A stretch of 64,000 nt of DNA. Source: Pocillopora verrucosa. Its lineage: Eukaryota; Cnidaria; Anthozoa; Scleractinia; Pocilloporidae. The notes under the pieces are model-generated. The model worked only from the letters and a program-made list of their open reading frames with translations, was not told the DNA's origin and made no database searches. The position numbers and the translations under genes were made by a program. Shown here piece after piece: positions 31,085 through 63,860 of the stretch. Where the stretch lies: the NCBI RefSeq assembly GCF_036669915.1, contig NC_089323.1:10754975-10818974 (forward strand), written 5' to 3'. Every line of letters begins with the position of its first letter. Position 1 is the stretch's first letter.

Positions 31085-31835
31085 GTGGAACAACAATGGC
31101 AAAGCTGTCACAACTGTGTACCCAACGCGATCTGTGTCAAACAAAGGAGCCTTTGTTTTCTCCATGAAGAATAGATCTAAGCGGAGCAAGAGCCCTTATA
31201 CTTATTATACTAATAGCACCGCAACATTCCACCCGCTGTTAGGAGGAGATTTAGTTTTCAAATTAAATCCTGGTCCTTTACAACAAGACGCTAGTTCTAC
31301 TCACTTGGGGCAAGCTTCTAGAGCAAAGTGTCGGTCAGCTCGTAACACCTCCGATCTTACTGAAATCAAACGGGCTCCGTTGAATAGAACACCAGACAAT
31401 AGTCGACTGTTATCACTTTGTTTACTAAATGCGCAATTAGTTAGGAATAAGACGGAAGACTTTGTTGGCTAGACAAGCGAAAACGAATATGATCTCGTCG
31501 CAATTACCGAGACCTGGCTACAAAAGAGAGATGATGTAGTCAGAGTTGAACTTTGCCCCACTGGTTATAAGCTAATAGACCATCCTTGTTCGGGAAGGGG
31601 CGGAGGAGGCATAGGATTGCTCTTCCGTGACTGCTTAAGAGTTAATACCGTCAGATCTGCTGAGGAGGAAGCCATCGATCATTCTGAGCCACCTGTACAA
31701 CTGTCGACATCTTGCAAGCTAAGGATTATTATTGCTTATGGAACACCACCTTCGGAAAACCACAGGGTCTCGTGTGCACCTTCCTAAAGGAGTTCGCTGA
31801 TTTCATGGAATCTGTTATTCATTTATTCATTTACT
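31085..31835 (+). mobile_element. LINE fragment: N-terminal half of APE-type endonuclease
   Basis: Plus-strand frames read FHPLLGGDLVFKLNPGP (the usual GDI.xNPGP leader of CR1/L2-like ORF2), then LSLCLLNAQLVRNKTEDFV, then (after a stop at 31470) YDLVAITETWLQKRDDVVR, which holds the ITETWL catalytic motif, then CPTGYKLIDHP, GRGGGGIGLLF, and KLRIIIAYGTPPSENH. The reading ends at EFADFMESVI near 31827, where unrelated AT-rich sequence begins. The second half of the same domain appears at 62885 onward. It has several stops and frameshifts and is not functional. The upstream part begins near 31040 with no 5' end recognised. Confidence 0.85.
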
Positions 31836-31998
31836 CAACTTTAATTATACAGATCTAAATATACAAATTGAAGATAAATTAACAATTAAAATAAATAAAA
31901 AGAAAAAAATGAAAAAAATCACAAGATCTGAATAGTTAGGTCAGTTTATACAGACTACGAAGATTCCTTATAAAAATAAACTGCCTCAATTAAAAAAC
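31836..31998 (-). mobile_element. Possible 3' tail of a minus-strand LINE
   Basis: On the minus strand this AT-rich segment ends with GAGTAAATGAATAAATGAAT, a short repeated tail of the kind seen at LINE 3' ends. Both it and the 3' flank of the minus-strand LINE at 62.1 kb contain AGAyCTGTATAATT. The relation is inference. Confidence 0.3.

Positions 31999-32043
<45 letters not shown>
31999..32043. repeat. Compound microsatellite (AT)n(AG)n
   Basis: About 11 AT units followed by about 11 AG units. Confidence 0.95.
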
Positions 32044-32045
<2 letters not shown>

Positions 32046-32087
32046 GGACAAGGTTGAATACGAAGCAAACATTTTTCAACAGCGGTA

Positions 32088-32132
32088 GGCTGGGGGAGAG
32101 GGGAGGGGGGAGGGGGGAGGGGGGAGGGGAAA
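32088..32132. repeat. G-rich tandem tract, potential G-quadruplex
   Basis: Repeats of AGGGGGG (GGGGAGGGGGGAGGGGGG). At least five runs of four or more G on the plus strand meet the usual G-quadruplex pattern. A similar tract precedes the second ADCK5-like exon copy at 48043-48107. Confidence 0.85.
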
Positions 32133-32506
32133 GAAAAGGATACAGAATGTAGTTCTCCAGGAAAAAGCTCGAATCTCTAAAGCATCCCACCGGTTATCGA
32201 TGGGGAGGTGGGTGAGGGTCGGATGGTAGGTTCGATCCTAATCAAGGGCTCAGAGTCTTTTACTCTGTTCAACGTCTACGACTAATAAAGCTGCGCAATA
32301 ATTTTAGGATTTGCTATTCGGTCTGTTAACTTTAAGGAAATCCACAAATTATGACAGTTTGTAACAGTAAAAATACATAAAAAATTCAACAAAGGAAATT
32401 AGGTGAACTTGGCCTCGCTAGAGAATGCTGCCATTAACAGGAAAACGTGCAAAAAATATCTGCGGCAAGAACAAGTTATTTCGAAATGAAATAAAACTTT
32501 CCACAC

Positions 32507-32690
32507 TTGAACACAAGTAGCATGCTCTGTAGAAGCTGTTTAAGAATGATCGTCACTTTCTTGAAGTGTTCTTTAGCGAGCTTTGTCATGATTGTCAAAT
32601 CCTCTCCATTCACTCCTAAAGTAAACAGCATCCCAGCGCTTCTCCAAGCGAACGGACGTTGAAGAAGAATCTGACAAAAATTCTCGAAAC
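32507..32690 (-). pseudogene. ADCK5: Orphan ADCK5-like exon, copy Y1
   Basis: A 184-bp minus-strand exon between an acceptor (CTCCCAG, ends 32691) and a donor-like GTGTGG (from 32506). It encodes FENFCQILLQRPFAW, then MTKLAKEHFKKVTIILKQL and MLLVFK. Human ADCK5 has, from memory, EMLMQRPVRL ... MARERFEAVMAVLRELPRSMLLVLRN at the same place, in the C-lobe of the UbiB/aarF-type atypical kinase. ADCK proteins act in mitochondrial coenzyme Q biology. No neighbouring ADCK exons were found next to it, so it is a stranded fragment. It is duplicated at 48388-48571 within a longer ~500-bp homologous block (32210-32700 against 48105-48590). Confidence 0.7.
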
Positions 32691-32875
32691 CTGGGAGATA
32701 AAACGACATTTAAAACGAACATAAGTCTTAATACCTACTTTTTAAACTTACTCTGGATGGATGTATCCCACTTTAATTATAAAATATATATTGTCACGCT
32801 CAATGTCATTGTTTATGTTGAGGCTCATCTGTACATAATGCTTCATAATGACTTTGAAAAAATTCCAAATGTAAT

Positions 32876-33790
32876 TATAATAAAGTTCGGATATAACGCG
32901 CGCTGTCATTGGTTAAAAGAGCGTACTCTATAAGAGTTTATAATAAAGTTCGGATATAACGCGCGCTGTCATTGGTTGAAAGAGCGTGCTCTATGAGAGT
33001 ATAGAGCATAGAGCTGAGCTAAAGCTGTTACGCCGTCTGCCAAATTGTACTATGTTCGACCCCTTCCGGGATTTCTTTTAGCTTTTTTTCGATAATTGAA
33101 AGTGAAATTTCGGAACAAGCGAGCCGGCGAGTAGCGACAGAAGTACCAAACAAAGGTTTGTAAACATACCAGACGCCGTAATTTACGTTATTAAAACGTG
33201 AGCAGATACGAAAATCCTCAAAGGGAAAAACAAAATAGACATTCCGAGTTTTAAAGATTTTCACGCTTAGTTAGATTGCAAGCTTACGCACTGTAATACA
33301 AATCAAACACAGCTAACACTCGTATAGTATATAAAGTTCAGTGTTCAAAAACAAAACAGAAAAAAACAGAAATGATGAAAAATATAACCAAACTGGCGTA
33401 ACCTTTCAAATTCATACTAATCATGACGGTGTCTGAGCGAATATGATCATGCTGAAGTCCATCGCGGCTTGCTCATCATGGCGATCTCCGGTCATCACAG
33501 TAAAGCAAGCCTCAGAAACTACATCGGCCGCCCTTCGTGTGAAAAAATTAGAGCTTGCTCTGATATCCTTTCCGATGCGTTGAGTGGAAAGTCACATCAG
33601 TCACTGCACCGAACTATTTTAGTTTGTAAACTATCGCAGATTGTGAACTTTGATGGTTTGACACTTATGACAGTTTTTGTCCTGTACAGCCAATTAGATT
33701 ATTTGAATCATTCTAACAGGGATTCTGATTGGCTTCTCCCTACTCTTCTTTCGTGCTCTTGCCGCTTCCTGCGTGCTCTATAACAGAACA
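32876..33790. repeat. Dispersed noncoding repeat with 61-bp tandem duplication
   Basis: AATAAAGTTCGGATATAACG then CGCGCTGTCATTGGTT occurs twice in tandem (32876-32936 and about 32940-33000), followed by a long AT-rich body. Near 33770 CGTGCTCTATAACAGAACAG then AGCACAGTC mirrors the AGAGCGTGCTCTAT motif at the left. Sequence of this type is, from memory, repeated widely in coral genomes. The open frames in it (33028-33264 minus, 33469-33783 plus) lack recognisable domains. Confidence 0.55.
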
Positions 33791-35587
33791 GAGCACAGTC
33801 AAGGCTTCTCTATTTGTTAATTGGTGAGAGTAGGCGAGAACACAATAGAATAACAATAAAACATGAATTAAGGGGTGAATATCATCTGCTATGCGTTGAG
33901 AAATTTCTCTTAATTAGGTGGAAAAGTCACAAAACTAATGGAATCTCCTGAAGCCCATTGATGTGGATTGTAGAGAGGCGAACAAATCAATTGACAAGTA
34001 GAGAGAACGATAACCAGGCAAACTTTACCATTAGAACTCCTGCAAATTAAACTACGTCTTTTCCGAATAGTCATAACAAGCTAGCTATATATGTTAATGG
34101 AAAGTCCACTGTGGACCTATCACATCCTGCTTTCCAACTTGGTGGTGTTACGTGGAGGGAAAGATCACTCCACTTACACAGAGTCATCGCAAGTCAGTAT
34201 GTGGAAAGTTCAGTGCGAGGGTTTCACTGACAATGAATAGCGAGTTACTGGGGCCTATTTCATAAGTCCATTTTTGCACGAGGGTCAAAGTATTTACAGG
34301 AGTTATGTCGATCGACGATGTAAATGATGTCATCAATAACGCTCTGTTGAGGGGCGTTCAAAATGATAGCCTTTGAAAACCTTTACCGGGACCAATTTGC
34401 ATTATCAACACATTTAATAGAACTAAGTTTTTTGTCATTAATAACAGCCTGTTTTTAACAAGAGTTTAAGAAGTATCGTACAGTGCTTACTTGTAACAGT
34501 ATATCACATTCTCTGTAACACCGTATATTTTATCATCACTCTGGCCTATGGCTTCCTGAGTAAAAAAACCCTCAAAGTCGACATGTTTCCCTTGCATTTT
34601 ATCGCCATTTTCCCCAAGTTTGTGAGCACTTTCTATTAAGATCACTTTTGTTAGCGGACAGATATTGAGCCAAAATGTTGAATGTGTGATGATATCGTTA
34701 ATAATTTTTGCATGTGCTAAAACCCGAAACAGCAAAACGAAACGACCAAACCGTAACGACCGTTATGACCAAAACAAAACCACTGTAATGATCGAGACGA
34801 GTGGATGATAAAAAGTTGACTTCACCTCAGATATTCTCTCGCATTTAAGGATTTTACATATCAAGGCCGTCTCACGAAACTTAATTTTTTCCACCACGCG
34901 AGCAACTGAAACTTTAATTTGACACTTATATGTAGTTTCCAGAACGGAACGCCAGCCTCATTGAATACTGAGGCGTATATGGAAAGAAACAGATTACGGT
35001 ATTCATTGACAACGTCTATGTCCGTGACTCTTTTATTGATTGTTTTTTTTTAACTAAGGTTCCCTCGCCGCCTGATGCTAAGCCGATGGCAATCAAGAGA
35101 TAACTGAATTTCCTGTGAGGTAGATCAGGAGTAGACCATAATCTAAACAAGAAGAATATGACGCAGTTTTCCTTCTCTTTGAAATATGGAAGAAACCAGC
35201 GAAGAACTACCCAATTTTTCTATCGGCATTGACCTTTTATGTCCTGATCCAACAAGCAACAAAAATAAAGCCGAAAAAAACTCCTAAGTAGTTTCAGTCT
35301 TTGACTTTTAAAACCTTTTTTAGTGACACTTGAGTTCATTTGGCTTTGATTTTCTCCATTTTCCCCGTACATTTTGAGCTTTTCATTCGCAGTTGTCGGT
35401 TAACTGGATCAAATGTTCTCGCTCAAACCAAAGTATAAAATGTGGCGTGTCACAGTTTTTGACCAGTCAATAGGGACGTTTGTTTATTTTTTTTTTTGAG
35501 CGTTGTGAGAATTTTGCACTCTATCACAATAAAAGGCTTCTTTGCACAGATCCTTGTCGTCGCTCTGTTATAAAAGAATTTACTCTT
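33791..35587. repeat. Left edge of duplicated FReD unit
   Basis: 34385-34800 is homologous to 42605-43060 (shared TCATTAATAACAGyCTGTTT, TGCATTTTATsrCCATTTTC, AACAAAACGAAAsGACCAAA). It marks the left part of the segmental duplication that carries the FReD genes. No exon was recognised. Confidence 0.6.
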
Positions 35588-35752
35588 GCTTTTAGCTGTG
35601 CGTATATCGAGTTATGGATGCACGCGGGAAGTTTGGAGAGCACTCAAAAAGCTATAGTTGCCCTCGGTTGCGCCTCGAGCTACTCTTACGCATTTTTCGT
35701 GCTCTCCAAACTTCCCGCGTGCATCCATAACTCGATATACACACGCTAAGCA
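35588..35752. mobile_element. Foldback element with a perfect ~39-bp arm pair
   Basis: TATCGAGTTATGGATGCACG continuing CGGGAAGTTTGGAGAGCAC (35605-35643) is the exact complement of 35699-35737. The fold continues outward with mismatches (GCTTTTAGCTGTGCGTA against TACACACGCTAAGC). It is absent from the corresponding place in unit 2, so it inserted after the duplication. Confidence 0.85.
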
Positions 35753-36511
35753 TGAACAAATTCTTAAATTCACTGCAATTTCAATGATCAGTTTATTAAA
35801 CACAAATGTCTTAGCTTTCGCAGTCTGTCTTTCGGAGAATTCTGACTCAAACACATCATCACAGGTGCATCGATTTATCCAAGGTGGAGGCGGAGCTTAG
35901 AAACTGCTTTCCTAGAAAAATTAAGGTTTCCGGCCTCAACATTCAGCGTAAACAAAATTACCTCCTACAACACTACGAAAAGCCGCTCAAAATATCCAGG
36001 GAAACAAATTATTGTACAGTATTGTTCTTTCTGTCTAACTTATCGGGTAATTTTGTTGAGAGCATTTTTTGCAAGATACTTTCTAAATTAGAAAAAGCAT
36101 AACCTTATGTATAACACCATAGTTAACTCCGAAGGAAAATGCGACGTATTGTGTGGTTCTAAAAATTTATATTTTCAAAAATTTTTCATTTGAGACACAA
36201 AACTGGTCATAACACCTTAGTTACCTCCAGGGAAAATAGGAAAACATTGTGTATTTCTAAGACTTCTTACATGTCCCGCTGAAAGTGTTTTGATCAAATA
36301 ATTTGCAGCTTTGTTTAAGAGTTGCCATATACGTTTTTCAAAACATTCTCTGTTTTTCACTGCAGTATTTCGTTTACTGTCATATCCAGTGGTACTGAGA
36401 TGTGAGATCACTCATTAATTAAGATTGAAAAGCAACGAGCTGATGACTAACACAATTAGAACAGTTGGACAGGAAGAAGGACTGTGGCGTATAGAACAGC
36501 GGTTTTGTTTA

Positions 36512-36633
36512 GTAACCATAGTTACAGAAGTTCAAACAGTTTTATAAATTAAAGGAAAGCACGAAAGCAAGTTTTCACTTTTGATAATCTCGGGAACAAA
36601 ACCAAGTACGAAAAACACTGTTTCGCTCAGAGG
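36512..36633 (+). promoter_or_regulatory. FReD-1 promoter module and probable noncoding first exon
   Basis: A 14-bp palindrome GTAACCATAGTTAC (36512-36525), then TTTATAAATT (36541-36550, TATA-like), then about 80 bp ending CAGAGG before GTAAGA (donor at 36634). The partner acceptor is TTATTTATAG at 37602, four bases before the FReD ATG. The same order is found upstream of FReD-2 and, less conserved, FReD-4. The palindrome resembles an RFX X-box (GTNRCC then a spacer). Confidence 0.6.
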
Positions 36634-37605
36634 GTAAGAAATATCTCTGTGAGCTACTTATGGACCAAGCCTTTCTTGCTCAGACTAATTGCGCTGATAG
36701 CAGAAATGATCGAGAAAACTTTTGTGTAAAATTCTGTCAATTCAGCCATACGATGTTTCACATTCTGTCAAAGTTGTTATAAATTTGTTTTTTTTTGTAG
36801 GTTGAAGCTCTCAAATACCACCCGAAAGTCAGAATGCTTGCGACCAGTCTAACTAAGATAAAATCAGGTGATGTTTAATGCTAACTACCATGCTCAACTA
36901 CCATTAGCAAAACGAGCCATAAAAAACTTAGGCCTCTGTACCTTAAGGTTGCTACAAAGTTAATTTTAATTTTAATAATGTGCAATGCTGTTCTATCGTA
37001 TTGGAGAATGTTTTGAGATGAAAAAGGATAAATTGTTAAAAGTTTGTATTTCAGAAGTGATCTGACATCTTTGTCGGTAGCAAGTTTGCAGAAATTTGTT
37101 TCTCGCTCTTAACTTGATTGCCGCAGGTTCAAAGTTAAACTGGCTGAATATAACATATTGATAAACTCCTGTCACCTCCAAAAGTGTGATGTGCTCTATT
37201 CCGTTTTTCTTAGATGCTTTTGAAAATATTATGGCTTATCAGAATAAGATAAAATTTACAAGGAAGAGTAAGAATTTAAAAATACCCCAATACAGATAAG
37301 TTGCGTTACGGCGGTCTATTATTTTCCCTTTTTTGCGCCTTTTGCAGCCGTTAACACACCTTCGAAAATAAATATTTAATAAAAATAAATTCAAACTAAG
37401 GGATGAAACAAGCCTGTTAGCATTATTAACATGACTGAACGAAGTATTTGCCTTCGAGATGTTGGGCTAGTTAAGAGTCCCTTTAAGTAGACAAAGCTGG
37501 CAAATAAATGCTGAACACCTGTCTTATATTTGTCAGGATGATTTGTATTTTGGGACGCTCACTATCAGATTTTTACCTTGAATTTACAATTATTTATTTA
37601 TAGCG

Positions 37606-40355
37606 ATGCAGTTCAAGTTTTCTATTTAACCGATCATTAATATTCTCTATATCTTCCATGGAATTATTCTCCTACCATGCTTCTGTTGCACAGGTGAGTA
37701 TAAATCCCTTTTTAAATTTCTTGTATTTCATCTTTTTGGTGTCGTTTCTGCAAAAATTTAAAATTTAAATAATTTTAAATTTAAAAAATTTTAAATTTAG
37801 AAATCTAAAGCCTTATAAATGTGTTTTATATCTTCCTGTTTGTATTTCGCATGAAATTGTAATGTAATTTATTTAGTTTATACTCAGGGCTCCCATTGAT
37901 AGCAGGTGGCTCTTTAGGGCTTCTGACGGGGCTACCCTAAGGTTTATTTTTATTTTAAATAAAGGCATCCATCCATCAAAACCATGACTCAAACTATATA
38001 TGCTACCTGCTTATCAGAGCAAATGATCTTTAAGCAGACAATCTTTATCTAACTATTATGTCTACTATTATGGAATAGGCGATACAAAAAAAGCCAAATT
38101 TCAAAAAGACCCCATCGCATGCGCATCAATGGTTCAAAATGATAATTTAAACAAATGATTCACAGATATCGTGGTGTGGTAGTGAACGCTGTGAAAATAT
38201 TCTTGATATTTTCCTTAATATTTTCTTTCCGCGCGTTAATTCACAATCAAAGATTGATTTTGTTAAGTTTAATTTTCAAGAGATGACAATCACCTTTAGG
38301 GAAAATTCGTCAGGGTTCTCGTGCAGTAAAGTTTTGAAAGAAAGTGGTCTAATGTGCCTAGTGAAAATGAAAAAGTACCTCGAGTGAGTGGAAACTAAAC
38401 GATATATTTGTTTTGCCTACCACAGACGATGATTGTCGAAACATCATATTCAAGCACCCAATACCAAACATGACCATGAAAAATCACGCGATCAAAAGTG
38501 TAGAGGTGCCCAACGAAGGAAGTTGCAGAGTAATGTGTTATATGGAGCCTAATTGCCTGTCCATCAATATTGGACCTGTTGTAGGAGGAAACCAAAAATG
38601 CGAGTTGAATAACGCCACGGAGGAAAACCATGCTCCATTTCTTCTCGTGAAAAATCAGGGTTGCACATATCTTGCAATCAAGGTAACATTTCACATTCTT
38701 ACGAAACTACGGTGCCAGAAGAGATTGTTTCGTTTTCTTAGGCTAAAGACATAACTTAAGGAAGATCTGCACTATAGCTTACTTTGTTTTGTCAACAGAA
38801 TCTATGCAGCAGCAGCCCATGCTTAAACAATGGCACCTCTCAAGCCGGATTCACCAGTAAAGGATTTCGTTGTGTCTGTCAGGAAACATTCACAGGAGAA
38901 ACCTGCCAAGTTGAAGGTAAAATGGCTGGATTGTGTAGACTAGTCTCTCGTGTAGTACGTGTAGTACGCGAGGAGTTACTCACTAAAGTTTCAAAATTGA
39001 CTTCAAGAACAAAATATTAATCACTGAATGAAAGCTAAAAAGGAAAAGCTACGTACGGTCACTTTAAATGAATATAGCTGGTAGATATTAAGGAAGAAGA
39101 AATGGTATTTGCTAATGTTCAGAATCAAGTTTTATCAGCCAGAGCAACAGTCAGGAAAGCAAACAAAAAGCACTCAATATCCAAACAATTTAAAGTAGGC
39201 GTGTTGTTTTGTTTTTTGTTTTTTTTTTTTTACTGATTTTCAGTCAAAAGAAACTGCGCAGAAATCTACAAATCCGCGGGTAAACCAACTGACGGTGTCT
39301 ACGCCATTAAACCTGATAACTTGCCTGCCTTTGATGTATTCTGTGACCAAACAACGGACGGTGGAGGATGGATTGTGTTCCAGAAGAGACTGGACGGCTC
39401 GGTTGATTTCTACCGCTATTGGAACGACTACAAACGTGGCTTTGGTGACCTGTGTGGTGAGTTTTGGCTCGGACTGGACAAAATTCACCGCTTGACCTCA
39501 GATAATAATAACACGCTGCGTGTGGATTTGGAAGACTTTGAAGGAAACACAGCTTATGCTGAGTATAACTTGTTTGGTGTTATGAGTGAGAAAGACAAGT
39601 ACAAGCTGATCCTTGGTTCTTATTCAAGTAGAACTGTCATTTCGTCTCCTCTATTCTAGTCATTCTAAGAATTAAGGGGGGGGAAGGGGGAGGAGGACAG
39701 GGCTTAGTAATGTAAATATGCTTAAACTATTTTACATCAATAGCTTTGGAAGACAAAGAAGTAACCTCAGCTCATCGCTATGCAATCCTGGACAGCGCAT
39801 ACCGGACGTTGATTAGTCCAAAGGTATTCGCCTGTGAATCATGCGTAGTTAACCTGATCAACTAATCCAAATCTGAGGAGTGTCTCAGCGAACAATTTAT
39901 TGTAATTATTATATTGAGTATTTTAATCCTTACAATATTCGACAAGAATGATAGATATTACTAAGAATGCTTTTAATCCATATCATTATTGTTAAATTAT
40001 ACTTATCCTATATTTTAAGATTTCTTTTGAATTATGAACGGCTCATTGTTGGTCAAACGTAATACTCATAGTGCGGCTCATTTTGTCAGGAAATTCTGGT
40101 GACTCTCTTGCTTTCCATCGCGGTATGCCATTCACCACTAGAGATCAAGAGAATGACGATCGGGGGGATCACAACTGCGCCATTAAGTTCAAAGGAGCCT
40201 GGTGGTACCGTTGGTGTCACCGCTCAAATCTCAATGGCTTGTATCTTCGTGGCAGTCACTCCTCTTCTGGTGATGGAGTGAACTGGTTTCAATGGGAGGG
40301 TTATCATCACTCCCTCAAGAGAACCGAGATGAAAATAAGACCAAAGGATTTCTGA
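37606..40355 (+). pseudogene. FReD-1: PAN-EGF-fibrinogen lectin-like gene with disabling changes
   Basis: Five exons in the family pattern: 37606-37693, 38426-38682, 38799-38916, 39244-39627 and 40090-40355 (88, 257, 118, 384 and 266 bp). Exon 1 encodes the signal peptide but codon 8 is TAA (Gln in FReD-2). In the EGF exon the third cysteine is Ser (NNGTSQAG). The exon 4 donor has A instead of G before GTAGAA. Exon 2 (PAN/apple-like, with [15 protein letters not shown]) and exons 4-5 (fibrinogen C-terminal domain, with [19 protein letters not shown] and [17 protein letters not shown]) are otherwise open. The introns stay very close to those of FReD-2, so the duplication is recent. A downstream start would leave a protein without signal peptide. 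I call it a probable pseudogene. Confidence 0.8.
37756..37976 (+). mobile_element. LINE 3'-end insertion in FReD-1 intron 1
   Basis: About 220 bp absent from the matching intron of FReD-2. Both sides carry CAAAA (37751-37755 and 37977-37981). The right end has GGCTCCCATTGATAGCAGGT, then ACGGGGCTACCCTAAGG, then an A/T-rich AAATAAAG tail, the style of a 5'-truncated LINE tail. The left part is a palindromic AAATTTAAAATT tract. Confidence 0.55.
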
Positions 40356-41351
40356 ACTGTCATGTTTGTGGCACAACAAACAGCACCAACGTAACAAAAA
40401 AACCGAGTGTCTCGATCAAGTATATTCAGCATTAAACAATCACTCTTAAATTGGAGCTTAGTGGAACGTTGTTCAGGGTTTTTCTTGCTTCTTTGTGCGT
40501 GTTTTTCAAAATAGGAACAGTTAATTCTGTAGAATCGACCAGTTAACCAGTAATAATAATAATCATCATAATAGTAATAATGACTTAATCTATATAGCGG
40601 TACATACAAAAAGCTTCTTATCATAGTTGGAAATTGACAGTTAATCATAAGAAGCTCTGAAAAAATGCACCTTAATCTTTTCTCGAAAAACTGAAACCAA
40701 TGGACTCAATTCAAGGTCTATGGGTGAGACATTCTACAGTCTGGGGGCAGCAGCTGAATAGACCCTGTCTCCATAACATTCTAGGTGGGTCCTTGGTATT
40801 CACAGAAGTTATTCTCGAATCTCAATGGCTTGTGTCATCATGGCCATCACGACTCCTATGCTCCTTCTATCTGAGTTATACAAGTTTTGATTCTTTAAAT
40901 TTTTGACGCGTATTTTCACTTGACGGAACACAAAGCGATCACACAGCCTTCATTTTTTCAAAGTCAATATCAGAAGAGTAACCACAGTCGCTAATTCAGG
41001 TCTAGTTCCCTTTGATTTCTATAACGAAACTCCAAACAATTACCCAATGTTTTGACTCTAAAGAACGCTGTCAGAAAAACAAATATTTTAAGTTTTAGTG
41101 TACAATGTAACGTAATGTTAATGATTCTAAAGTGCTTCATATATTGCTTTTATTTGTATTTTTGCCTTGTACTGTTATTGATAAACATATTGCACATTAA
41201 ATCATAAGAACATATTGCACGCTCAAGGTCCATTTTGTAGATATGGCTCATCAGGTGATTATGTTACAAACTAAGTTTGTAGAAATACCAAATGTAAGGA
41301 TAAGTAGGTGAAATCTCTTTTGTTTTATTCCCCCCTAGCCTCGGAGCCATG
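40356..41351. other. 3' flank of FReD-1, homologous to 47255-48030 and 58480-59270
   Basis: Contains the probable 3' UTR and flank shared with FReD-2 and FReD-4, including ATAATAATAATCATCATAAT repeats near 40550 and 47440. No separate gene. Confidence 0.6.
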
Positions 41352-41612
41352 TTAGAATCTTGATATATCAAAAGTGGCGTATTGGATCACTTGTGATCAT
41401 TGGTTTGCAGGCTACAAGAGGACTCCTTACAGCTTTATTTACTTATAAATGATTAAAATCTTTGATACATAAAAAGTTTTCGTTTTAGAATCTTGATATA
41501 TCAAAAGTGGCGCATGGGATCATTTGTGATCATTGGTTTGTAGGCTACAAGAGGAATCTTAACAGCTTTGTTTATTTGTAAACGATTAAAATCTTTGATA
41601 CATAAAAAGTTT
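41352..41612. repeat. 133-bp tandem duplication
   Basis: TTAGAATCTTGATATATCAA ... CATAAAAAGTTT occurs at 41352-41484 and again at 41485-41612 with a few substitutions. The homologous region of unit 4 (59300-59425) has one copy, so the duplication is specific to unit 1. Confidence 0.85.
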
Positions 41613-41648
41613 CGATTTTTCACAATTTGAATTCGATGGGGAACGAAA

Positions 41649-41814: not shown

Positions 41815-41868
41815 CTAGTGACAACAAGAAATTTGTTAGTGACAGGCTCAAACGATTCACCTTCGTTT

Positions 41869-42076: not shown

Positions 42077-42279
42077 AATCAGCACGGATTAGTTTAGGAA
42101 TGATTTTCGTTTTAAAACCGAATTCTCTACGCCAGATAACTGAATGAACAAATATATAAAGAAATAGTTAAAGAAATAACGAAAAAGATAAAAAGATAAA
42201 TTAACTGAAAAGGCTTTGAAAATACTTCCACAAAAATATCAAAAATTAGCGCGGTTAGACGTTTCGATGTCGTCCTAAA

Positions 42280-48571: not shown

Positions 48572-48597
48572 CTGGAAAATAAAACTAAATTAACCTT

Positions 48598-51311: not shown

Positions 51312-51316
51312 TTGCA

Positions 51317-53326: not shown

Positions 53327-53340
53327 GTAACCATGGTTAC
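53327..53340. promoter_or_regulatory. Perfect 14-bp palindrome, isolated FReD promoter element
   Basis: GTAACCATGGTTAC within TCCTGTTTTGTAACCATGG, the context found at the other FReD promoters. It is followed by TTTATTTATGATAG (TATA-like) but by no recognisable exon 1. Confidence 0.5.
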
Positions 53341-53639
53341 AGTATTTCAAATAGTTTTATTTATGATAGCACGACACTACTTTTAGCCACCAATATATTC
53401 TGGAGTACTTAAGACCTTCACTTTAATCTGATAAAAAAAGATCCCATATACTGTATTTTCGTGGTATAAATGTTTGGAACAATGACCATATCCTTTGACA
53501 GCCGATTTCCATATAATTATAGTCGTTTGAAGATTTTTCCGACGGCTCTGACATTTGGCTTGTTTTGAAATACAACTTATTACTAAATAAACCCCTTCGG
53601 GCGGCTGGTAAATCGGCTGGTAATGTCCTCGGCTGAGAT

Positions 53640-54250
53640 ACTGTCCAAAATTAGGGATGCTTGGCCGAGAAGCAGAGCCTCGAGGGAAAATGTGAAGTTT
53701 TGAGGACAATCTGTAATGTTTAACGTACGGACGGTACGTTACAAATTTATTTGTATAGATTATTTATTTCTTTTATGTCACGCGAGATCGCTCGCTCTGA
53801 TGGCGGATGCGTAATTGCGAGCAGGTTTTTAACATTTTACTGGAGTCTACACATAGAATTTGTTTTCTTCCGTGTAAGATAATTGAGAAAAATACCTGGG
53901 TTATAGCGTGGTAACTGTCCGGGTTTAACATTTCTCTTGAGACTCGGAGGGGGGGGGGGGGGCTGATATATCAGCTGATAATGTCCAAAATTTGGCCGAA
54001 AAGCAAAGCCTCGGGGGAAAATGTGAAGTTTTTGTGGACAATCTTTCAGCCAAGGACATTATCAGTTGAAATACCATCAAGCCAGAAAGGGGTTTATTTA
54101 TTTTATAACGTACCCTCTTATTAATTTTCATATGATCCGAAACCGCTCGTAGAAAGCAAGTGCTTGTCTGATGCGGATGCGTAGTTGCGACCAGCCTTTT
54201 AATATTTTACTACACTTTACAAAAAGAGTTTTTTTCTTCCGTGTAAGATA
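53640..54250. repeat. Diverged tandem duplication, ~340-bp spacing
   Basis: GGCCGAGAAGCAGAGCCTCG (53660) recurs as GGCCGAAAAGCAAAGCCTCG (53995), and GCGGATGCGTAATTGCGAGC (53803) recurs as GCGGATGCGTAGTTGCGACC (54171), with CTTCCGTGTAAGATAA at 53867 and 54236. A G run lies at 53948-53962. Noncoding. Confidence 0.7.
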
Positions 54251-54713
54251 ACTGAGTTGGCTCTCTTCCACTAGCCTTGTTTCTTTTCGTCGGAAATAAT
54301 CCGAAAGCAGACCGGGTTTATAGCGTGGTAATTGTCTGGTGATTTTGCACCACGTCATGTAAAGTAGCGATTAAAATGACGCGAGAATGAATGGGTGGAT
54401 TACAACGATATAGGTTTGAATAACATTTCACTCGACACTGTCTCGCTTGTTTGGGTTTCTACAATTACTGACCATATTTCATAATTTCAAGCTTTGTGTA
54501 AAAGTTAGACTGGCTGACTTTTTCAAAAATCCTCCTGGTCTTTTATAGAGGTATTTCATTGACTATTATACTTGTCCAATGTTACTTAGAGAAAACCAAC
54601 CACCCAGAGTTAACAGAAAAGCAATGATCCGATGACTGAAAATAGGTAGAACAGCTGAACGGGAAGAAGACCTGAGACGTTTATGTTCGCCACGCATTAA
54701 ATCGTTCTGTTTT

Positions 54714-54826
54714 GTAACCATAGTTACAGCACCTTAAACACTTCTCCAGAGGGTAGCAAAAAAGATTTCATTCCTGACACATCCGAACACAGTATCGAGT
54801 ACGACAAACATTTTGTCTGTCAGATG
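54714..54826 (+). promoter_or_regulatory. FReD-4 promoter module
   Basis: GTAACCATAGTTAC at 54714-54727 and a donor CAGATG before GTAAGA (54826), with acceptor TTCATAG just before the ATG at 55169. The TATA-like box of units 1-2 is not conserved at the expected spacing. Confidence 0.5.
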
Positions 54827-55168
54827 GTAAGAAAAATATTTGTGAGTTACTTATGGATATTTAGCTCAAATAAATTGCACTTGAATCTGTTGCAGCAAGT
54901 TAAAAGACAAACAAGTTTAAGCTAAAAACCGTAAACTCCGGTCATTAGAGTGATGTGTTCAGTCTTCGTCTGTACCGATGCTTTAGAAAAGATTATGGCT
55001 TATTAAATGGTAAAAGCAGAAATAGCTAAGAAATAAATGCTGAACAACTGCATAGCCTTTATGAGCATTTAAATTTATAAAGAAACAGAAAGTTTTATAA
55101 TTTGTGACGACTTTAAATGCTCACGATCATGTTTCTTACCTTGGAGTTATAATTTTTAATTCATAGCG

Positions 55169-57647
55169 ATGCAGTTCAAGTCTTTCCTTGAAGCTATCAT
55201 CGGCAATATCTATATTCTTCTTGGAATAACCCTTCCACCGTGTTTTTGTTGCACTGGTGAGTATAACTACACTATTATTAAACTTCTTGAGTTACATTTT
55301 TCTGGCGCTGCTCCCTCGAATCTATTAGAAGAACTAGGCCACCGGCAAACAATGCAAACAATCTTTAAGCAAATACTTATTTTTCTAACTCAAAATGTCT
55401 CCTTTAAAATCTATAAATCTCCTTTTCCTTCGCCGTATTTGAAAAAAGCCCTCAATTAATTTCGTGGTAATTAACGCCATGAAAATTATTATTTTTCAGA
55501 TATTTTCCGTAACATACACCCTTTACACTGGTTAGCTCATCTACATAGCTCTGTTTTAATAATTAAAACCTCCTGTTAGAATTGAAGTATAAAAAGATGA
55601 AAATATCCTATAAAGGTTTTCATGCGGTAAGTTGGCAAAATAGCGTGCTTTAATGTGTTACTTTACCAATTGACAATAAGAAATTTTGTACGAGTAAGCG
55701 ATAACTGGACGAGTAATTCCATTTGTTTTGCTTTCTCTAGGTGACGATTGTCGAAAAATTATATTTAGAGACCCAATACAAAACATGGCCATGAAGGATC
55801 GTGTGATCTGGAGTGCAGAGGTGCCCAATGAGGGAAGCTGCAGAGTGATGTGTTATATGACGCCTGATTGTGTGTCCATTAATGTTGGACCTGTAGAAGG
55901 AGGAGACCAAAAATGCGAGTTGAACAACGCCACCGAGGAAAACCATGCTCCATTTCTTCTTGTGAATAAACCAGGCTTCATATATCTTGCAATCGAGGTA
56001 AAAATTTCACATTTTTGCCAACCTGAGGGGAGTCAGACACATGATTTATTTTCATTTCAGGTCAAAGTGATCTTATTCTTGATTCTTGTCTAATGGAAAA
56101 GCTACAAGAGCTTTATTTTGTTATTGATCAGAGGAGGTTGTTCATTTCTTGGCGCTAAAATGATTTTATTCTTGACGTAAGGAAAAGTTTCACGAAGTTT
56201 ACTTTATTTTTACCAACAGAATCCCTGCAATAGCAGTCCATGTTTGAACAATGGCACCTGTCAAGCTGGATTCACCAGTAAAGGTTTTCGTTGTGTTTGT
56301 CGTCATGGATTTAGTGGAGAAAACTGCCAATTGCAAGGTAGCATAAACTGCGTTTTTGTTCACTAATCCTCCTGGGTTAAATGAACCACTGAAGTTTGGG
56401 TAATTTACTAACTGCTTTTAAAATCTGGTAACAGAAGTAGATTTAAACTCATTCGTAAATTGATAATTGTAGAGTATTTAGAATTGATTGAAATTTTATT
56501 CCTTGGACGAGTATCTAGTGTGCGCGGTATCGAATCCTACAATTTTCTCATATATTCATAGGCCTGAAAAAAAATTGTGCTGAAATTTACAAAGCTGGGG
56601 AAAGAAGAGATGGTATGTACACCATAAAACCTGATAACTTACTTGCCTTTGATGTATTCTGTGACCAAACAACGGAGGGTGGAGGATGGACTGTGTTCCA
56701 GAGGAGACTGGACGGCTCGGTTGATTTCTACCGCCTCTGGAACGACTACAAACATGGCTTTGGTGACCTATGTGGTGAGTTTTGGCTCGGATTGGACAAG
56801 ATTCACCGCCTAACCTCTGGCGTTAACAATGTGCTGCGTGTAGACTTGGGAGACTTTGAAGGAAAAAATACTTATGCTGAGTATGAAAGGTTTGGTGTTA
56901 TGGGTGAGAATGACAAGTACAAGCTGATCCTTGGTTCTTATTCAGGTAGAACTGTCATTTCGTCTCTTCTATCTAGTCATGCTAAGAACGGGAGGGGGGG
57001 GGGGGGGGGGGAGAGTAATAAGTGACGTAAATATGCTTAAACTCTTTTACATCAATAGCTTTGGAAGACAAAAAAGTAACCTCAGCTCATCGATATGCAA
57101 TCCTGGACAGCGCATAGGTATTCGCCGGTGGATGATGCGCAGTTAACCTGACGAACTAATCCAACTCTGAGGAGTGTCTCGGCGAACATATTTATTGTAA
57201 TTATCATATTGAGCATTTTAATCCCTAGAATCTTCGACAAGAATAATAGATATTACTAAGAATGCTTTTAATCCATATCATTATTGTTGAAGTATACTTA
57301 TCTGACATTTCAAGATTTGTTCTGTCTTATGAACGGCTCATTGTTGGTCAAACGTAATACTCATAGTGCGGCTCATTTTGTCAGGAAATTCTGGTGACTC
57401 TCTTACCGAGCATCGCGGTAAGCCGTTCACTACTAAAGATCAAGATAATAACGATTTGGCGACCGAATGCGCCATTAAGTACAAAGGAGCCTGGTGGTAC
57501 TCGAGGTGTCACCGATCAAATCTCAATGGCTTGTATCGTCGTGGAAATCACTCCTCCTATGCTGATGGAGTGAACTGGAAAGACTGGAAAGGTTATCATT
57601 ACTCCCTAAAGAGAACCGAGATGAAAATTAGACCAGTGGGTTTCTGA
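55169..57647 (+). CDS. FReD-4: secreted PAN-EGF-fibrinogen protein, intact (369 aa)
   Basis: Exons 55169-55256, 55741-55997, 56220-56337, 56562-56945 and 57385-57647 (88, 257, 118, 384 and 263 bp), all in phase. Signal peptide 1-29 (MQFKSFLEAIIGNIYILLGI at its start), PAN/apple-like domain 30-115 with the first cysteine kept ([24 protein letters not shown]), EGF-like domain with six cysteines (NPCNSSPCLNNGTCQAGF ... RHGFSGENC), then the fibrinogen domain ([33 protein letters not shown], a DQDNN calcium-loop-like segment, [18 protein letters not shown], ending MKIRPVGF). Exon 5 is one codon shorter than in FReD-1/2. Exons 1-3 are clearly diverged from FReD-2, while exon 4, intron 4 and the 3' flank are almost identical to it, which suggests gene conversion. 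Likely role: secreted pattern-recognition lectin; ligand unknown. Confidence 0.9.
56988..57011. repeat. Poly-G tract in FReD-4 intron 4
   Basis: A long G run shortly after the exon 4 donor. FReD-1 (about 39676-39695) and FReD-2 (about 46565-46590) have shorter, interrupted G-rich tracts at the same place. Confidence 0.85.
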
Positions 57648-57691
57648 ACTGTCATGATTATGGCACAACAATGAAACAGTGCCAACTTAAC

Positions 57692-58460
57692 TGTAACGGC
57701 TGCCACGCCTTTGCTACCGGAAATTATAAGTTATATATATACTAATTATATTAGTTATTGTTATAAGTTTGTTTCGTGTTAAACGTGTTAAACCGCAATA
57801 GTGACATTACTGTTTGCCCATTAGGGACGTGATCTTTAAGTTCCACTTAGAACCGCATTTTAGTTAGTTATCTTGCGTTGGACTAACGATAAGACGTGTT
57901 TATCGAAAGGCGCCCTTTTGCCCACCTTATCTCGAAGTTCGTTTTGGTCAAAATTTTTACAAGCGGGACTGTTATGTAAGTGCTTATGTTCCTTCTCTTC
58001 GTACTTGTTTAAACATCTAGTCTTTCGGTAATTTCGCCCAGTTTTTTATACCAGTTTCTTTGCAACCTTGTAACACGTGGCTTACGTTGTTCATGCTTTG
58101 TTAGGAAGTTGCTCGTTTTTCCCACTCGGTTATTAGTTTTGTTAGAATTCGTTTGCAAGCCCTTCTCCTTTATCCTTGAAGATAGTCTTTTGTGAGTTTG
58201 TTTCAGAGTTTAAGCTAGTCTTTTGAGATCTTTCCTTTATATCGGAATGATTGGAATGTTGGTCCGTATCTTAGAATTTAGCTTAGCTTCTTCCTTATAA
58301 TTTCATATTTCAGTTTACGATAATTACTTGGATACCTCGACTATGCTAATAAAACGATTCAAATCTTTTCCGCACAATATATCCTCGCTTCATAGTGCGT
58401 CTTCACTAGCGAAACTCATAGTTGTCGTTGAATTTTGCTTCGCTTGTGTCTGCCGCTACA
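57692..58460. mobile_element. Solo LTR, 769 bp, with TTAAC target duplication
   Basis: Begins TGTAACGGC and ends GCCGCTACA (TG...CA with 9-bp imperfect inverted ends). It is flanked by TTAAC at 57687-57691 and 58461-58465. The homologous places in units 1 and 2 (GCACCAACGTAACAAAAAA at about 40386 and 47282) have no insert, which proves an insertion. A polyadenylation-type AATAAA lies at 58348-58353. Five-bp duplications and TG/CA ends fit a Ty3/gypsy, BEL or copia LTR; no internal pol sequence remains, so it is a solo LTR. Confidence 0.92.
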
Positions 58461-59459
58461 TTAACAGAAAAAAAAACGAGTGTCTCGATCAAGTATATTC
58501 AGCATTAACCAATCACTCTTAAATTGGAGCTTAGCGAAACGTTGTTCAGGATTTTTCTTGCTTCTTTGTGCGTGTTTTTCAAAATGGAAATAGTTGATTC
58601 TGTAGAATCGGCCAGTTAACCAGTAATAATAATCATCATAATAGTAATAATAAATTAATATATATAGCGGTACATACGAAAAGCTCCTTATCATAGTTGG
58701 AAATTGACCGTTAATCACAAGTAGCTCTGAAAAAGAAACCAATGGACTCAATTCAAGGTTTATGGGTGAGACATTATATAGCCTGAGGACAGCGGCTGAA
58801 AAGACCCTAAAAATTTTAGTTGGGTCTTGGGTATTTACAAAAGTTATCCTAGAATCTCAGTGGCTCGTATCATCATGGCCATTAGGACTCCTATGCTCCT
58901 TCTATCTCGGTTACACAAGTTTTGATTCTTTAAATTTTTGACTCGTATTTTTACTTGACGGAACTCAAAGCGATCAGAGAGCCTTCATTTTTTTCAGAAG
59001 AGTAAACCCAGTCGCTCATTCAGTTCTAGTTCCCTTTGATTTCTATAACGAAACCCTAAACAATTACCCAATGTTTTGACCCTAAAGAACGCTATCAGAA
59101 AAACAAATGTTTCAAGTTTTGTTTTCAAGTGTACAATAGGATGCGGTAACGTAATGTCGATGATTCTAATGCTTCATGTTTTGCTTTTATTTGTATTTTC
59201 TTAGCTTTCGTTAAAGTAAATACCTTGCACTGTTATTGATATTGATAGGATGAGTAGGTGAAATTTCTTTTGTTTTATTCCCACTAGCCTCGAGCCATGT
59301 TAGAATTTTAATATCGAAAGTGGCCTCTTAGATAACTTGTGATCATTGGTTTGCAGGCTACAAGAGGACTCTTTACAGCTTTGTTTACTTATAATTGATT
59401 AAAATCTTTATTACATTAAAGTTTTGAATTTTTCACAATTTGAATACGATGGGGAACGA
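58461..59459. other. 3' flank of FReD-4
   Basis: Closely homologous to the FReD-1 and FReD-2 3' flanks (ACGAGTGTCTCGATCAAGTA; GGCTTGTGTCATCATGGCCA-type sequence), with a single copy of the sequence duplicated at 41352-41612. No gene. Confidence 0.6.
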
Positions 59460-59623
59460 AATAAAAAAACCGACACCGTTCTTTTGGCTCGTTCTGCGGC
59501 TATGGCGTCCAACTCGTGTAGATTTTTAATTTAGACGTGAGTTCGTCCATATCTTTAGGTGCACGCCCCAGGTGCTGAAGAATCTGGAGTAGTTTTCCAC
59601 CATCCACGCTCTGACTCATGGAT
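59460..59623 (-). pseudogene. ADCK5: Orphan ADCK5-like last exon, copy X4 (decayed)
   Basis: Homologue of X1: reads LLQILQHLGRAPKDMDELTS then KLKIY before a frame change, with an acceptor-like ACTAG at 59624. It confirms that each FReD unit carried this minus-strand exon in its 3' flank. Confidence 0.5.
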
Positions 59624-59673
59624 CTAGTGACAAAAAGAAATTTGTTAGTGACAGGCTCAAATGGTTTGTCTTC

Positions 59674-59875
59674 GTTTCACCCCTTACACCCTAACATCAG
59701 GTTGCATATTCTCCATTTTGTCCTCTATACATTTCCTAAGCTGATGACAGGGAGAATTTGTTTAACAATCAAGAGTTTCTTGAGTTGGTGATCATTTACT
59801 CTCCGTGACCTTAATGTTTGATTCAGGGGCAATAATGTGAGGAAAAATTAACTTCTAGTCATTCTACAAGATCAG
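59674..59875 (-). repeat. MITE family A copy, right end lost
   Basis: CACCCCTTACACCCTAACAT ... CCTTAATGTTTGATTCAGGG, in the same place relative to X4 as the 41869-42076 copy is to X1. Confidence 0.7.
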
Positions 59876-60207
59876 CACGGATTCAATGAAAGCCGATTAC
59901 CTGAGGTGTTTCTCCGCATATAAAACCTCTTACCACCGTCTGTTTAGCCTACGAACTGGCTCTTGTGTTTGGGCTTTGGGTTTAAAACCTATCAGATGCC
60001 AGTCGTAAAACGTATGCTCGGATGTGATGTAGCAGTATCATCCAGTAACTGGAAGTACAATAATCGGAAGTAGATTCGTAACAGAGAACCGGAAGTCAGA
60101 ACACTTTAAGAACAGGGAAAGTGGAAACGTCGTTCGAGCTAGCGGACTCCCTATGCGACGATAACTCGTTTTGCGAACCGTAAAAATTCTATATATCCGT
60201 CTGAACT

Positions 60208-60234
60208 ATTCTATTCTATTCTATTCTATTCCAA
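60208..60234. repeat. (CTATT)n microsatellite
   Basis: Five to six pentamer units. The surrounding sequence 59876-60545 shows no supported gene. Confidence 0.9.
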
Positions 60235-60545
60235 TATCCCTGTTGATGTGAGGGTGCAAGCTCGCACGCTACACCAACCATCTCACCTTCCTAACAAGGT
60301 GCATCAGGAACCGCGTTGTTCCTTGTTTTATTAAAACAGAAAGAAGACCACGGGATACAAATATTTTTCACCAACCATCTGGCCATGAGAACAAATTTAT
60401 CCACTGTTTCTCCTATTCTCCTAGTTCCTGATTAATGTGTCGAACTGTGTTTAAGTTCCTGAAAAAAAAAGAGAGAGAGAAAAAATGCGAGGATGGACAA
60501 CTTCTGACGTAAACTTCCACAAGATTGAGAATAAATTGTTCTGAA

Positions 60546-61383
60546 GAAATTTTTCTTGCCGAGAGAACAGCTGAGTACAAAGACGGAGTACCTTGTTAAC
60601 CAGGGCTATCCCTCTAAATTAGTTTCGGATCAATTCTCCAAAGCCTCCGCCATTCCTAGAAATGATTTACTTAGGACTCGTGGAAAAGAGACGGAGAAAT
60701 TATTTCCATTTGTTATTACATTTAATCCAAATTTACCCGACGTAGGCAACATAATCAGAAAGCATTTGTTCATTCCACAATCCAACCCCAAATTAAAAAA
60801 ACCTTTTCCTCGAGGTTCTATCATACCATCTTTTCATCGATCAAAAAATCTCAAAGAATTATGAGCACTATCTCTTTAAAACTGTCAACGAGGGACAAAC
60901 AATTCATCACATCAATGGCTGCTTCAAATGCAAGAGGAATAGATGCGATCTCTGTCGGAACTTCTTTGTTGAATTTAAATCATTTCTTAGCTTTCAAACG
61001 GGCAAAAAATACACCATTCATTCCAGACTTCCTTGTGATTCTAAAAATGTGATTTATTTGGTTTCTTGCGAGAAATATCGCTTGCAATACGTGGGATCTA
61101 CCACTACCGACTTTAGAATTAGGTTTCATCACAAATCTGCTATGCTCACAAACAAAACAACTTGTGAAGTAACAATACATTTTACCAGAATCCCACATAC
61201 CCTAGGTGATTTTTCGTTCCAGTGTATTGATCAGGTACACGCCCCAAGCGGCTCTGAAGAGATCGATAAGCTTTTAATTACAAAAGAGGCTTATTGGAGT
61301 GCTCAGCTGTTCTCTTTGGCACCCCATAGTTTAAATAAAAGAAAGGAATTTCATTCGAAAAACAGAATTTGCTATAATTAATT
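60546..61383 (+). mobile_element. Penelope-like element, 3' fragment with GIY-YIG domain
   Basis: Frames on the plus strand read TFNPNLPDVGNIIRKH, then SIIPSFHRSKNLKELL (the linker of Penelope-like RTs), then after frame changes MIYLVSCEKYRLQYVGSTTT, the GIY-YIG-type start (here YLV...YVG), then TDFRIRFHHKSAML and LLITKEAYWSAQLFSLAPHS, then a stop at 61379-61381. The reverse-transcriptase part is missing, so it is 5'-truncated; indels separate the linker from the nuclease. The 3' flank to about 61950 contains CTGAAGAAGGTCTCTGACCG, which I associate with this family's 3' end. Confidence 0.8.
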
Positions 61384-62105
61384 TTCCATTCTATATTGTT
61401 CGTTACTGATTAATCGTTCAAAGGCCCTTTTCTTGGATTTTGTCAGCCTTTTGGGTGTTGATTGGACTCAGAGGCCCTGCCAAGGGATCTTATTATGTAT
61501 AATTTTAATTAAGGGCCCCTCCAGGGATTTTGTCGCTAATTTTCCCTTTTCAGGCTCCAAAGGCCTTGTTTTGGGATTTTGGTACGGTTTACAGTTGTAG
61601 GTAAGAGTGGGTCTATGCTTTTCTAATGCTTGCCGCATTGCCTCTTCAGTTGCGCTATTCGTTTTAGCAAGTTTAATTTTTTAGTTTTTAGTTTTTATCT
61701 CTCGTATTTTGTCCATTAATTTCTTTGTGGCTTGTTTTTTTTTTTCGATATTTTTCGCTTTTTTGATTTTGTTATTTTTCATCTTTTTATTAACACCACT
61801 TTCTGCTCTTTCACGTGATTTTGTATCTTATTCATTAGTTGTCGCCTGTAATTACGTAATAAGTAGCACCTCGATCTTATTTAAAGCTCTTTTTTACTCA
61901 AAAGTTGTAAATAACTGAAGAAGGTCTCTGACCGAAACGTTTTTATTAAATTTTTTATCTTTTTTACGTCAGAAGTTGTAAATCCTCGCATTTTTCTAAA
62001 CTCTCTACGTTCGTGTTTGCTGTGAGGTTTGGACTGCGAATCTTTATTGATCCTCCTGGTGCGGTGCACCTTTTTTGACCTGAGAGTTCTAGTAACAATT
62101 TTATA
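61384..62105. other. Probable 3' UTR of the Penelope-like element
   Basis: T-rich, with no coding exon. It includes GGCCCTTTTCTTGGATTTTG-like phrases repeated with variation near 61420, 61500 and 61560. Confidence 0.45.
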
Positions 62106-62877
62106 TATATATATACACATAAAAAATTATACAGGTCTGCTCAAATAGTATGAAATATCATGACAATACAATATTAATCAATTATAAAAATCTATCTTTA
62201 TTTACGTTAAATTTATTAAGATAAAATTTATTACTACTGTTCTTAATTGATGAGAAATGTTCAATTGTTCCGATATCTAGTGGTAGGCAATTCCACAGGT
62301 CTACAATACGACTGAAGGAAGAAAACTTAAAAACATCAGGCCTTTCACCAGCCAGTGTAGGTTCACCATTTCTGATGTTATATTTGGGTGTCTTAAAATT
62401 TACACATGACAAAACATTGAAATCAGTATAACCTTTCAGGTATACTTAAAGAAAAAACAAAGATCCAAGATCTCTCTTCTATATTCTAAAGGTAAAAGTT
62501 TCAGTTGGTAACGTTTCCGCACAGCCCCATACTATTGTAAAACAAATCTGTTTTCCTAATGGCAATGTGTTTTTGTCATTGTTTTCTCTATCCAAGAACT
62601 GAATGCATAGTGTAGTATGGGGTTGTGCGGAAATTTTACCTTTCAGTTTGACAAGTCTCTCAGGATAACTTAAGTCAGTTTTCAGGATAAATTTAGTTGC
62701 ACGTCTTTGTGCACGCTCAAGTGCAGTGATCTTTTCTTTAATGTAAAGTGACCAGACCTGTGAAGCATACTCCAGCTGTGATCGAAAAGGTGATTTGTAT
62801 AAAAGTATCAATGTTTTCTGATCACATTCATTTGTACAAGTTCTTTTGATCATGCCCAGCATCTTGTTGGCAAACAA
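62106..62877 (-). mobile_element. LINE 3' fragment (RT C-terminal region), split by a MITE
   Basis: On the minus strand, from 62877: NKMLGMIKRTC, LYKSPFRSQLEYASQVWSLY, KITALERAQRRATKFILKTD, LSYPERLVKLK, then the MITE (62640-62507), then LLPLEYRREILDLC, and at 62412-62182 VNFKTPKYNIRN, FSRIVDLWNCLPLD, NKFYLNKF and a stop. This is the C-terminal end of a CR1/L2-like reverse transcriptase. The copy is 5'-truncated at 62877 and has a few frame changes. Its 3' flank ends in a short (TA)n run at 62102-62115. Confidence 0.85.
62507..62640. mobile_element. hAT-type MITE, copy 2, with 8-bp target duplication
   Basis: A 134-bp relative of 7146-7283 (shared CACAGCCCCATACT, AAACAAATCTGTTTTC, GTCATTGTTTTCTCTAT, ACTGAATGCATA). 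It is flanked by TTTCAGTT at 62499-62506 and 62641-62648. It sits exactly in the codon run of the LINE motif ERLVKLK/LLPLEY, so its insertion is later than that of the LINE. Confidence 0.92.
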
Positions 62878-62884
62878 ACATATA

Positions 62885-63860
62885 CAATCTTATCAAAGGA
62901 ATACTTGCTTGTCCTTGAGGATTTCAATATCCACGTGGATGTTCTAAATGATATCGACGCGGTGAAGTTCCTTGATCTGCTTGAATCGCTTGGGTTTGAA
63001 CAGCACGTTACCAAACCGACACATATATTTAGTCGCACATAAGATCTCTTTATCACGAGGAGAACTGAGACACTGCTGGGGTCAACTCCACGCAGTCGTC
63101 GCTACTTCTCTGATCATTCGGCTGTTTGCTGTAGTATTTGCATAAAAAAGCCTGCGCCCCAAGCCAAGAGGGTGACTTATAGGAAGACCAAGTCTGTTGA
63201 TCTTGACGGCCTCAAGCAAGATATCGCGAAGTCAAGGCTGTGTTGTCCATCCTCTTGTGAAGATTTTGACAAGTTTGTACAAAGTTACAACTACACCCTA
63301 AGCAGTATACCAGATCGCCATGCGCCACTGAAATCAAAAGTAATGAGGTCAAGGCCCCAGGTCCCCTGGTACAGCCAAGAAATTGCCGAGGCGAAAAGAG
63401 AGTGACGCAAGGCTGAGCAAACGTGGAGAAAGACAAAGTCCGCTGAAGACCTGCTGTTGTTCAAGAGATTACGAAATCAAGTTAACCGGGCACGGAGAAA
63501 TTTTTACGTGGGCTTTGTAAAGGAACAAGGTGGTGATCAGCGAAAACTTTTCAGGGCAACAAAGGCACTCCCTATGCCGAAGGATGAAATCTGTTTCCCC
63601 AATTGTCATGATGTGGCTCTGGCAAATGACATTGTCCGCTATTTCCATCGTAAGATCCTTAATATCCGTAACGAACTAGACGGTACCGATGTTACCCAGA
63701 ACAGATGTGGTGACCTGATTGACGACCCTGTTTTCAGCTCAAATCTCGAACCACCACGTGGTTTCAAGGAACAGACAGAGAAGGATGTATACCAGCTCAT
63801 TTAGGCTTCAGCTAAGAAAAGCTGTATGCTCGATCCTTTGCCAAATTCTGTCTTACTGGG
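62885..63860 (+). mobile_element. LINE fragment: C-terminal half of endonuclease plus linker
   Basis: Starts with LSKEYLLVLEDFNIHVDVLN (the GDFN catalytic motif, with Gly changed to Glu), then FLDLLESLGFEQHVTKPTHI, DLFITR, FSDHSAVCC (SDH motif), then a linker with YSQEIAEAKRE and FKRLRNQVNRARRNFYVGFV, RKLFRATKAL, and EKDVYQLI before a stop at 63802-63804. It ends before the RT core, near 63860. It has several stops. It is complementary in content to the fragment at 31085-31835. Confidence 0.85.

Follow-up and report, generated by a model that had tools for sequence, protein, structure and literature searches.

The window analysed here is a stretch of 64,000 nucleotides from the coral Pocillopora verrucosa (contig C12, positions 10754975-10818974, in a genome of 353,415,432 bases and 52 contigs), and it holds a tandem array of fibrinogen-domain (FReD) units enclosed by pieces of two long interspersed nuclear elements (LINEs). 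The comparisons below show the three to be nested: a plus-strand LINE (LINE A) was entered by a minus-strand LINE (LINE B), and LINE B by the FReD block. We consider it probable that this block was already multi-unit and arrived through the repair or replication of a break in a (TA)n tract. The arrangement suggests that the gene cluster was dropped here as a block and did not grow at this spot. An initial annotation of the same DNA had proposed a single LINE copy with about 31 kb between its halves and another LINE nested at the point of interruption, and this holds at both levels against family copies from the same genome, which served as a proxy for the empty site in place of other coral genomes. 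To that earlier picture we add that LINE B, too, is interrupted, within its own (TA)n.

An outer LINE cut within its endonuclease

The left half of LINE A (31056..31819, plus strand) encodes an N-terminal part and the first part of an APE-type endonuclease (EN), aligning by tblastn to residues 130-385 of the open reading frame (ORF) of its relative L003, with one in-frame stop (TAG, 31470) and one frameshift near 31775. The right half (62890..63888, plus strand) supplies the second part of the endonuclease and the start of the next region, carries three in-frame stops, and can be aligned with the L003 ORF as far as residue 743, reached at 63888, where the copy is cut off. The endonuclease, which its sequence places in the APE type, is 58-61% identical over up to 229 residues to that of L003-L007 and L009, whose open frames span 396-1226 residues, and we take LINE A to belong to a CR1/L2-like clade.

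The cut separates two codons. The left half terminates with GAA TCT GTT ATT at 31819 and the right half opens with TTA TCA AAG GAA at 62890 (at the earliest with ATC, at 62887), so that the break lies between I and L of ILSKE, EN positions 137 and 138. Both fragments had been noticed at the breaks and can be read directly, while their inner ends have moved: the left one stops at 31819 rather than 31835, and the right one starts at 62890 rather than 62885. At the DNA level, up to about 4 bases can be counted on both sides of the junction (ATTC left, ATCT right), which implies that LINE A lost nothing and that 0-4 bases were duplicated.

The genome was searched with a 230-residue query, the endonuclease joined at the cut and read through the frameshift, with X for each stop; 150 of 487 candidates were scored and 30 loci fetched, two of them the window's own halves (98 and 99%). 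The joined sequence is gap-free at EN 127-148 against all 28 other fetched relatives, in agreement with the earlier claim of a continuous endonuclease: no codon is missing or counted twice. These relatives form about eight sets of nearly identical sequences, so they do not amount to 28 independent tests. The seven nearest (L003-L007, L009 and L032) show STILSKEP at this place, where the window has SVI/LSKEY, the slash marking the cut. After the two halves the next best identity is 65%, with all other matches at or below this value, and no third copy of the LINE A subfamily is present among the 150 scored candidates. At the DNA level, 351 bases of the left half returned the self match only, in a search that skips very common words.

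The two halves could also be compared for subfamily and divergence, a check that the initial annotation had suggested. Both are nearest to the same family, the L003 group, to whose five full-length members the left half has identities of 0.54-0.57; the right half reaches 0.65-0.67. Since the right half has equal or higher identity in every other relative compared too, the gap between the halves is no sign of two subfamilies. By these comparisons, LINE A is a single copy whose two halves now lie about 31 kb apart.

Two further observations concern LINE A and its surroundings. Positions 31234-31277 of its N-terminal part read LLGGDLVFKLNPGP, which we take to resemble a decayed 2A/StopGo motif (ending NPGP) of the kind known from some elements without long terminal repeats. 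After its cut end, a LINE of a different family (L021-like, 48-61%) occupies 63932-64000 and runs on to 65525 in window numbering (L034).

A second LINE opened at its own (TA)n tract

The break in LINE A is lined on both sides by minus-strand LINE sequence. On the left, 31834..31999 corresponds to the 3' end of the 3' untranslated region (UTR) of LINE B, preceded at 31820..31833 (minus strand) by either its variable 3' tail, a TAAATGAA-type repeat, or target-site bases; two family copies, L036 and L039, differ here from the window and from each other. On the right, 62116..62872 (minus strand) contains the start of the 3'UTR and the C-terminal coding part of the reverse transcriptase, 5'-truncated at about 62872. 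The sequence assigns LINE B, with its C-terminal reverse-transcriptase part, 3'UTR and repeat-like tail, to the same superfamily as LINE A and to another family. Its protein has 81-83% amino-acid identity to L036-L039, and Pfam reports no reverse-transcriptase domain in 62482-62889.

A search with the LINE B protein gave 515 candidates, of which 150 were scored and 148 matched; 29 loci besides the window's were compared with both pieces. In L039 (C13:9230276) and L036 (C8:16108437), the right piece, one (TA)n and the left piece (31834-31997) follow each other unbroken, which makes LINE B one copy. The left piece is 92.7% identical to L039 and 90.9% to L036; within the right piece the corresponding values are 86.0% and 81.3% over 62115-62499, and 92.1% and 92.6% over 62643-62872, so that the divergence is similar for both pieces. 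The family match of the minus-strand LINE formerly described as ending at the second break stops at about 62872 instead of exactly at 62877, and the LINE-like tail seen at the first break is real and belongs to the same element. The left piece was not found in L037, L038 and L047 within the fetched flanks, and six further loci gave matches of at most 41 bases.

The right piece of LINE B contains a miniature inverted-repeat transposable element (MITE) at 62507..62640, whose ends are inverted and which is flanked by the 8-bp target duplication TTTCAGTT (62499-62506 / 62641-62648), a length that would presumably fit a hAT-type element. This MITE is missing from L036 and L039, and it is 88% identical to 7144-7279 of the window.

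At the 5' junction of LINE B, 17 bases (62873..62889) lie outside the family match, and the last three of them, ATC, may belong to LINE A. Such extra bases fit a habit of L2-type LINEs: PMC4245944 describes extra 5' nucleotides in about half of the copies of ZfL2-2, a zebrafish L2-type element, and target duplications of 1-8 bp for its relative ZfL2-1.

Content, edges and relative age of the FReD block

The block that separates the pieces of LINE B measures about 30,080 bases (32022..62101) and has no counterpart at the corresponding place in L036 and L039. It is bordered by (TA)11 at 32000..32021 and (TA)7 at 62102..62115, read as the left and right parts of the LINE B (TA)n, and the block edges are uncertain by the length of these tracts. 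They are the only two runs of (TA)6 or longer in the window. Copies of the LINE B family have one (TA)n here, of about 9-10 TA, and either a duplicated target or slippage could give the two tracts. The left end of the block opens with (GA)11 (32022-32043).

Within the block, the sequence points to a tandem array of four plus-strand FReD units, one of them partial. Unit 1 (36122..42578) is identified by Pfam (Fibrinogen_C, E 2.8e-46 for 39237-39656), and unit 2 (43298..48992), the partial unit 3 (48997..50951) and unit 4 (54481..59996) by DNA similarity. The 10 kb of flanking DNA fetched beyond each end of the window (L033 and L034) contained no FReD sequence.

To the right of unit 4 lies what we take to be a 5'-truncated Penelope-like element (60470..62006, plus strand), with a 44-nt inverted repeat (60470-60513 / 61963-62006, 84%) and a GIY-YIG region at 60797-61378 whose match, 17.5 bits, is under the Pfam cut-off of 22.6. 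The 95 bases between this inverted repeat and the TA tract (62007..62101) are either the tail of the element or unrelated sequence, and match nothing else in the window below an E-value of 0.05.

The initial annotation had left two histories side by side, a nested LINE insertion later expanded by the array and an insertion of the whole block. Divergence favours the second, not decisively, and makes the first less favoured. Non-coding Kimura two-parameter distances between units are 0.103 (units 1-2), 0.156 (1-4), 0.175 (2-3), 0.179 (2-4), 0.179 (1-3) and 0.220 (3-4, 221 sites only), or 0.051-0.110 per lineage when halved. The terminal branch of LINE B is 0.040 by hand from pairwise distances and 0.060 from a three-way alignment (95% bootstrap limits 0.042-0.081); it is an upper bound for the insertion of LINE B and hence also for that of the block. 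The pairs with unit 3 and the pair 2-4 exceed the LINE B limit, 1-4 does not clearly, and 1-2 does not. Given equal rates, distances older than this limit favour a ready-made array landing in LINE B. Gene conversion between units would make them appear younger, never older.

Other features were recorded in and around the block. A repeat of about 510 bases (86%) joins 32204-32710 and 48082-48591, next to purine-rich tracts, and is confined to unit 2 and the left end of the block; we dropped it as a left border of the array, as it is missing from units 1 and 4, and it is probably a dispersed repeat. At the end of unit 1 (42515-42587, minus strand), a tRNA-like match scores 30.3 bits, the gathering score being 29; it could be either a tRNA or a short interspersed nuclear element derived from one. 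Positions 51282-51707 weakly resemble the C-terminal part of a LINE protein (E 0.26 to L001, described below). To the left of LINE A, an inverted repeat (26209-26797 / 30227-30833) has arms of about 600 bases that are 96% identical, with about 3.4 kb between them, and one arm overlaps a minus-strand open frame.

Proposed history, alternatives and known systems

The previous comparisons show three nested insertions. A plus-strand LINE A, of a subfamily now nearly lost, first occupied the site. A 5'-truncated, minus-strand LINE B then entered its endonuclease, between the I and L codons of ILSKE, without loss of LINE A. Finally, a block of about 30.08 kb with the tandem FReD array entered the (TA)n of the LINE B 3'UTR. 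This block would already have been multi-unit on arrival, copied or moved from a FReD locus elsewhere; the route that we judge most likely starts from a break in the (TA)n tract that was repaired or replicated. Some unit duplication, as between units 1 and 2, may postdate the arrival. LINE A and LINE B would be a landing site only, with no role in FReD function.

Several observations weigh against this history. In LINE A, a join three residues shorter scores better with Pfam Exo_endo_phos_2 (24.0 against 19.4 bits, below the Pfam cut-off). With Exo_endo_phos the exact join is the best, at 20.1 bits against 17.6 for the three-residue-shorter variant and 14.8-15.9 for the other three (cut-off 24.5), and this mixed test is superseded by the family comparison. 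At the LINE A junction, the alignment to a distant LINE, L001, is poor. L001 (1-3108, a genome_contigs hit) is a eukaryote-like LINE ORF of 909 residues in the record of a Gammaproteobacteria metagenome-assembled genome, where it is a probable contamination, and it is too distant from LINE A to inform the comparison. Nothing useful came from searches of LINE B against viral_contigs, of LINE A against viral_contigs, genome_contigs, phages and plasmids, or of the LINE EN alignment against viral_contigs, and solved structures gave no useful relative. In LINE B, the left piece is carried by just 2 of the 29 fetched relatives (2 of the 5 near ones, L036-L039 and L047), and private changes are unevenly spread, 4/160 in the left piece and 35/552 in the right one (Fisher p 0.074), a distribution compatible with one LINE B copy. 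Beyond the TA repeats no target duplication is evident at the block edges, nor is a source array. Finally, the upper LINE B limit of 0.081 covers units 1-2 and 1-4, so that the age limits overlap.

This overlap leaves some room for a history in which the nest is correct but the (TA)n received little, a single FReD unit or just the Penelope-like element, and the array then grew by unequal crossing-over. The units do stand in tandem, duplications at 0.051-0.078 per lineage could be later than LINE B, and PMC10236652 reports pervasive tandem gene duplication in corals. Yet the half-distances of the unit-3 pairs and of 2-4 (0.087-0.110) are above the upper LINE B limit, unless units evolve faster, and we regard growth in place as unlikely. 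The main technical doubt is a misjoin in the assembly, in which misplaced reads or contigs would have put the block into LINE B at a simple repeat. Each edge falls in a (TA)n tract, a typical misjoin place, and tandem arrays are difficult to assemble; against this, the window contains no N, the assembly is chromosome-scale, since contigs C1-C14 (17.7-36.6 Mb each) account for almost the whole 353.4 Mb, and both outer flanks are one LINE copy, leaving no gap between wrong neighbours to fill. An artefact of this kind is, in our judgement, decidedly improbable.

Still less room is left for independent LINE copies that abut by chance in matching order. Related LINEs are plentiful, as the searches with both elements illustrate, but two independent families would each have to be split at a matching point and in nested order, and the scored candidates hold no third copy of the LINE A subfamily; coincidence is hardly credible. 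A simple inversion was rejected by reasoning, because the right halves would then stand in reversed order and on the opposite strand, which is not the case.

Apart from break repair, it is conceivable, if very unlikely, that a Penelope-type retroelement or another (TA)n-targeting mechanism with large cargo moved a ready-made, intron-bearing FReD array, up to 30 kb, into the LINE. Mobilisation with Penelope terminal repeats at both ends was not borne out, as none is present at the left end of the block, where 32043-32230 finds no counterpart elsewhere in the window, even with E-values of up to 1 allowed. The Penelope-like right end and the AT-rich target keep a Penelope-mediated move in consideration. 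If true, Penelope-type elements would disperse whole tandem clusters of immune-type genes, beyond single genes.

If the proposed nest is right, other copies of the target LINE would show the exact target of a 30-kb gene-array insertion, a rare before-and-after view, and the divergence of LINE B would bound the date of the insertion. It would also open the question of whether the clustered lectin-type genes of this genome spread as blocks besides tandem duplication in place.

Three known systems offer comparison. The inner LINE resembles nested insertions of CR1/L2-kind LINEs by target-primed reverse transcription (PMC4245944) in its 5'-truncated copy, its repeat-like 3' tail, its entry into a LINE without target loss and its extra bases at the 5' junction; it differs in having been opened later by a gene block of 30 kb, a size well beyond that of LINE products. 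The array is akin to interspersed segmental duplications and to the tandem gene clusters of corals (PMC10236652), being a tandem multi-gene family with units 10-22% apart. In contrast to these clusters, its landing site and prior state can be read to within a TA tract from copies of the target LINE. The third comparison is the rotifer Adineta vaga, where, according to PMC3846280, Penelope mobilises single intron-containing host genes and a simple AT-rich tract is the preferred kind of target. The Penelope-like fragment at the right end of the block and its simple AT-rich target recall that system, whereas here about 30 kb would have moved instead of single genes, and no left-end terminal repeat was found in the window.

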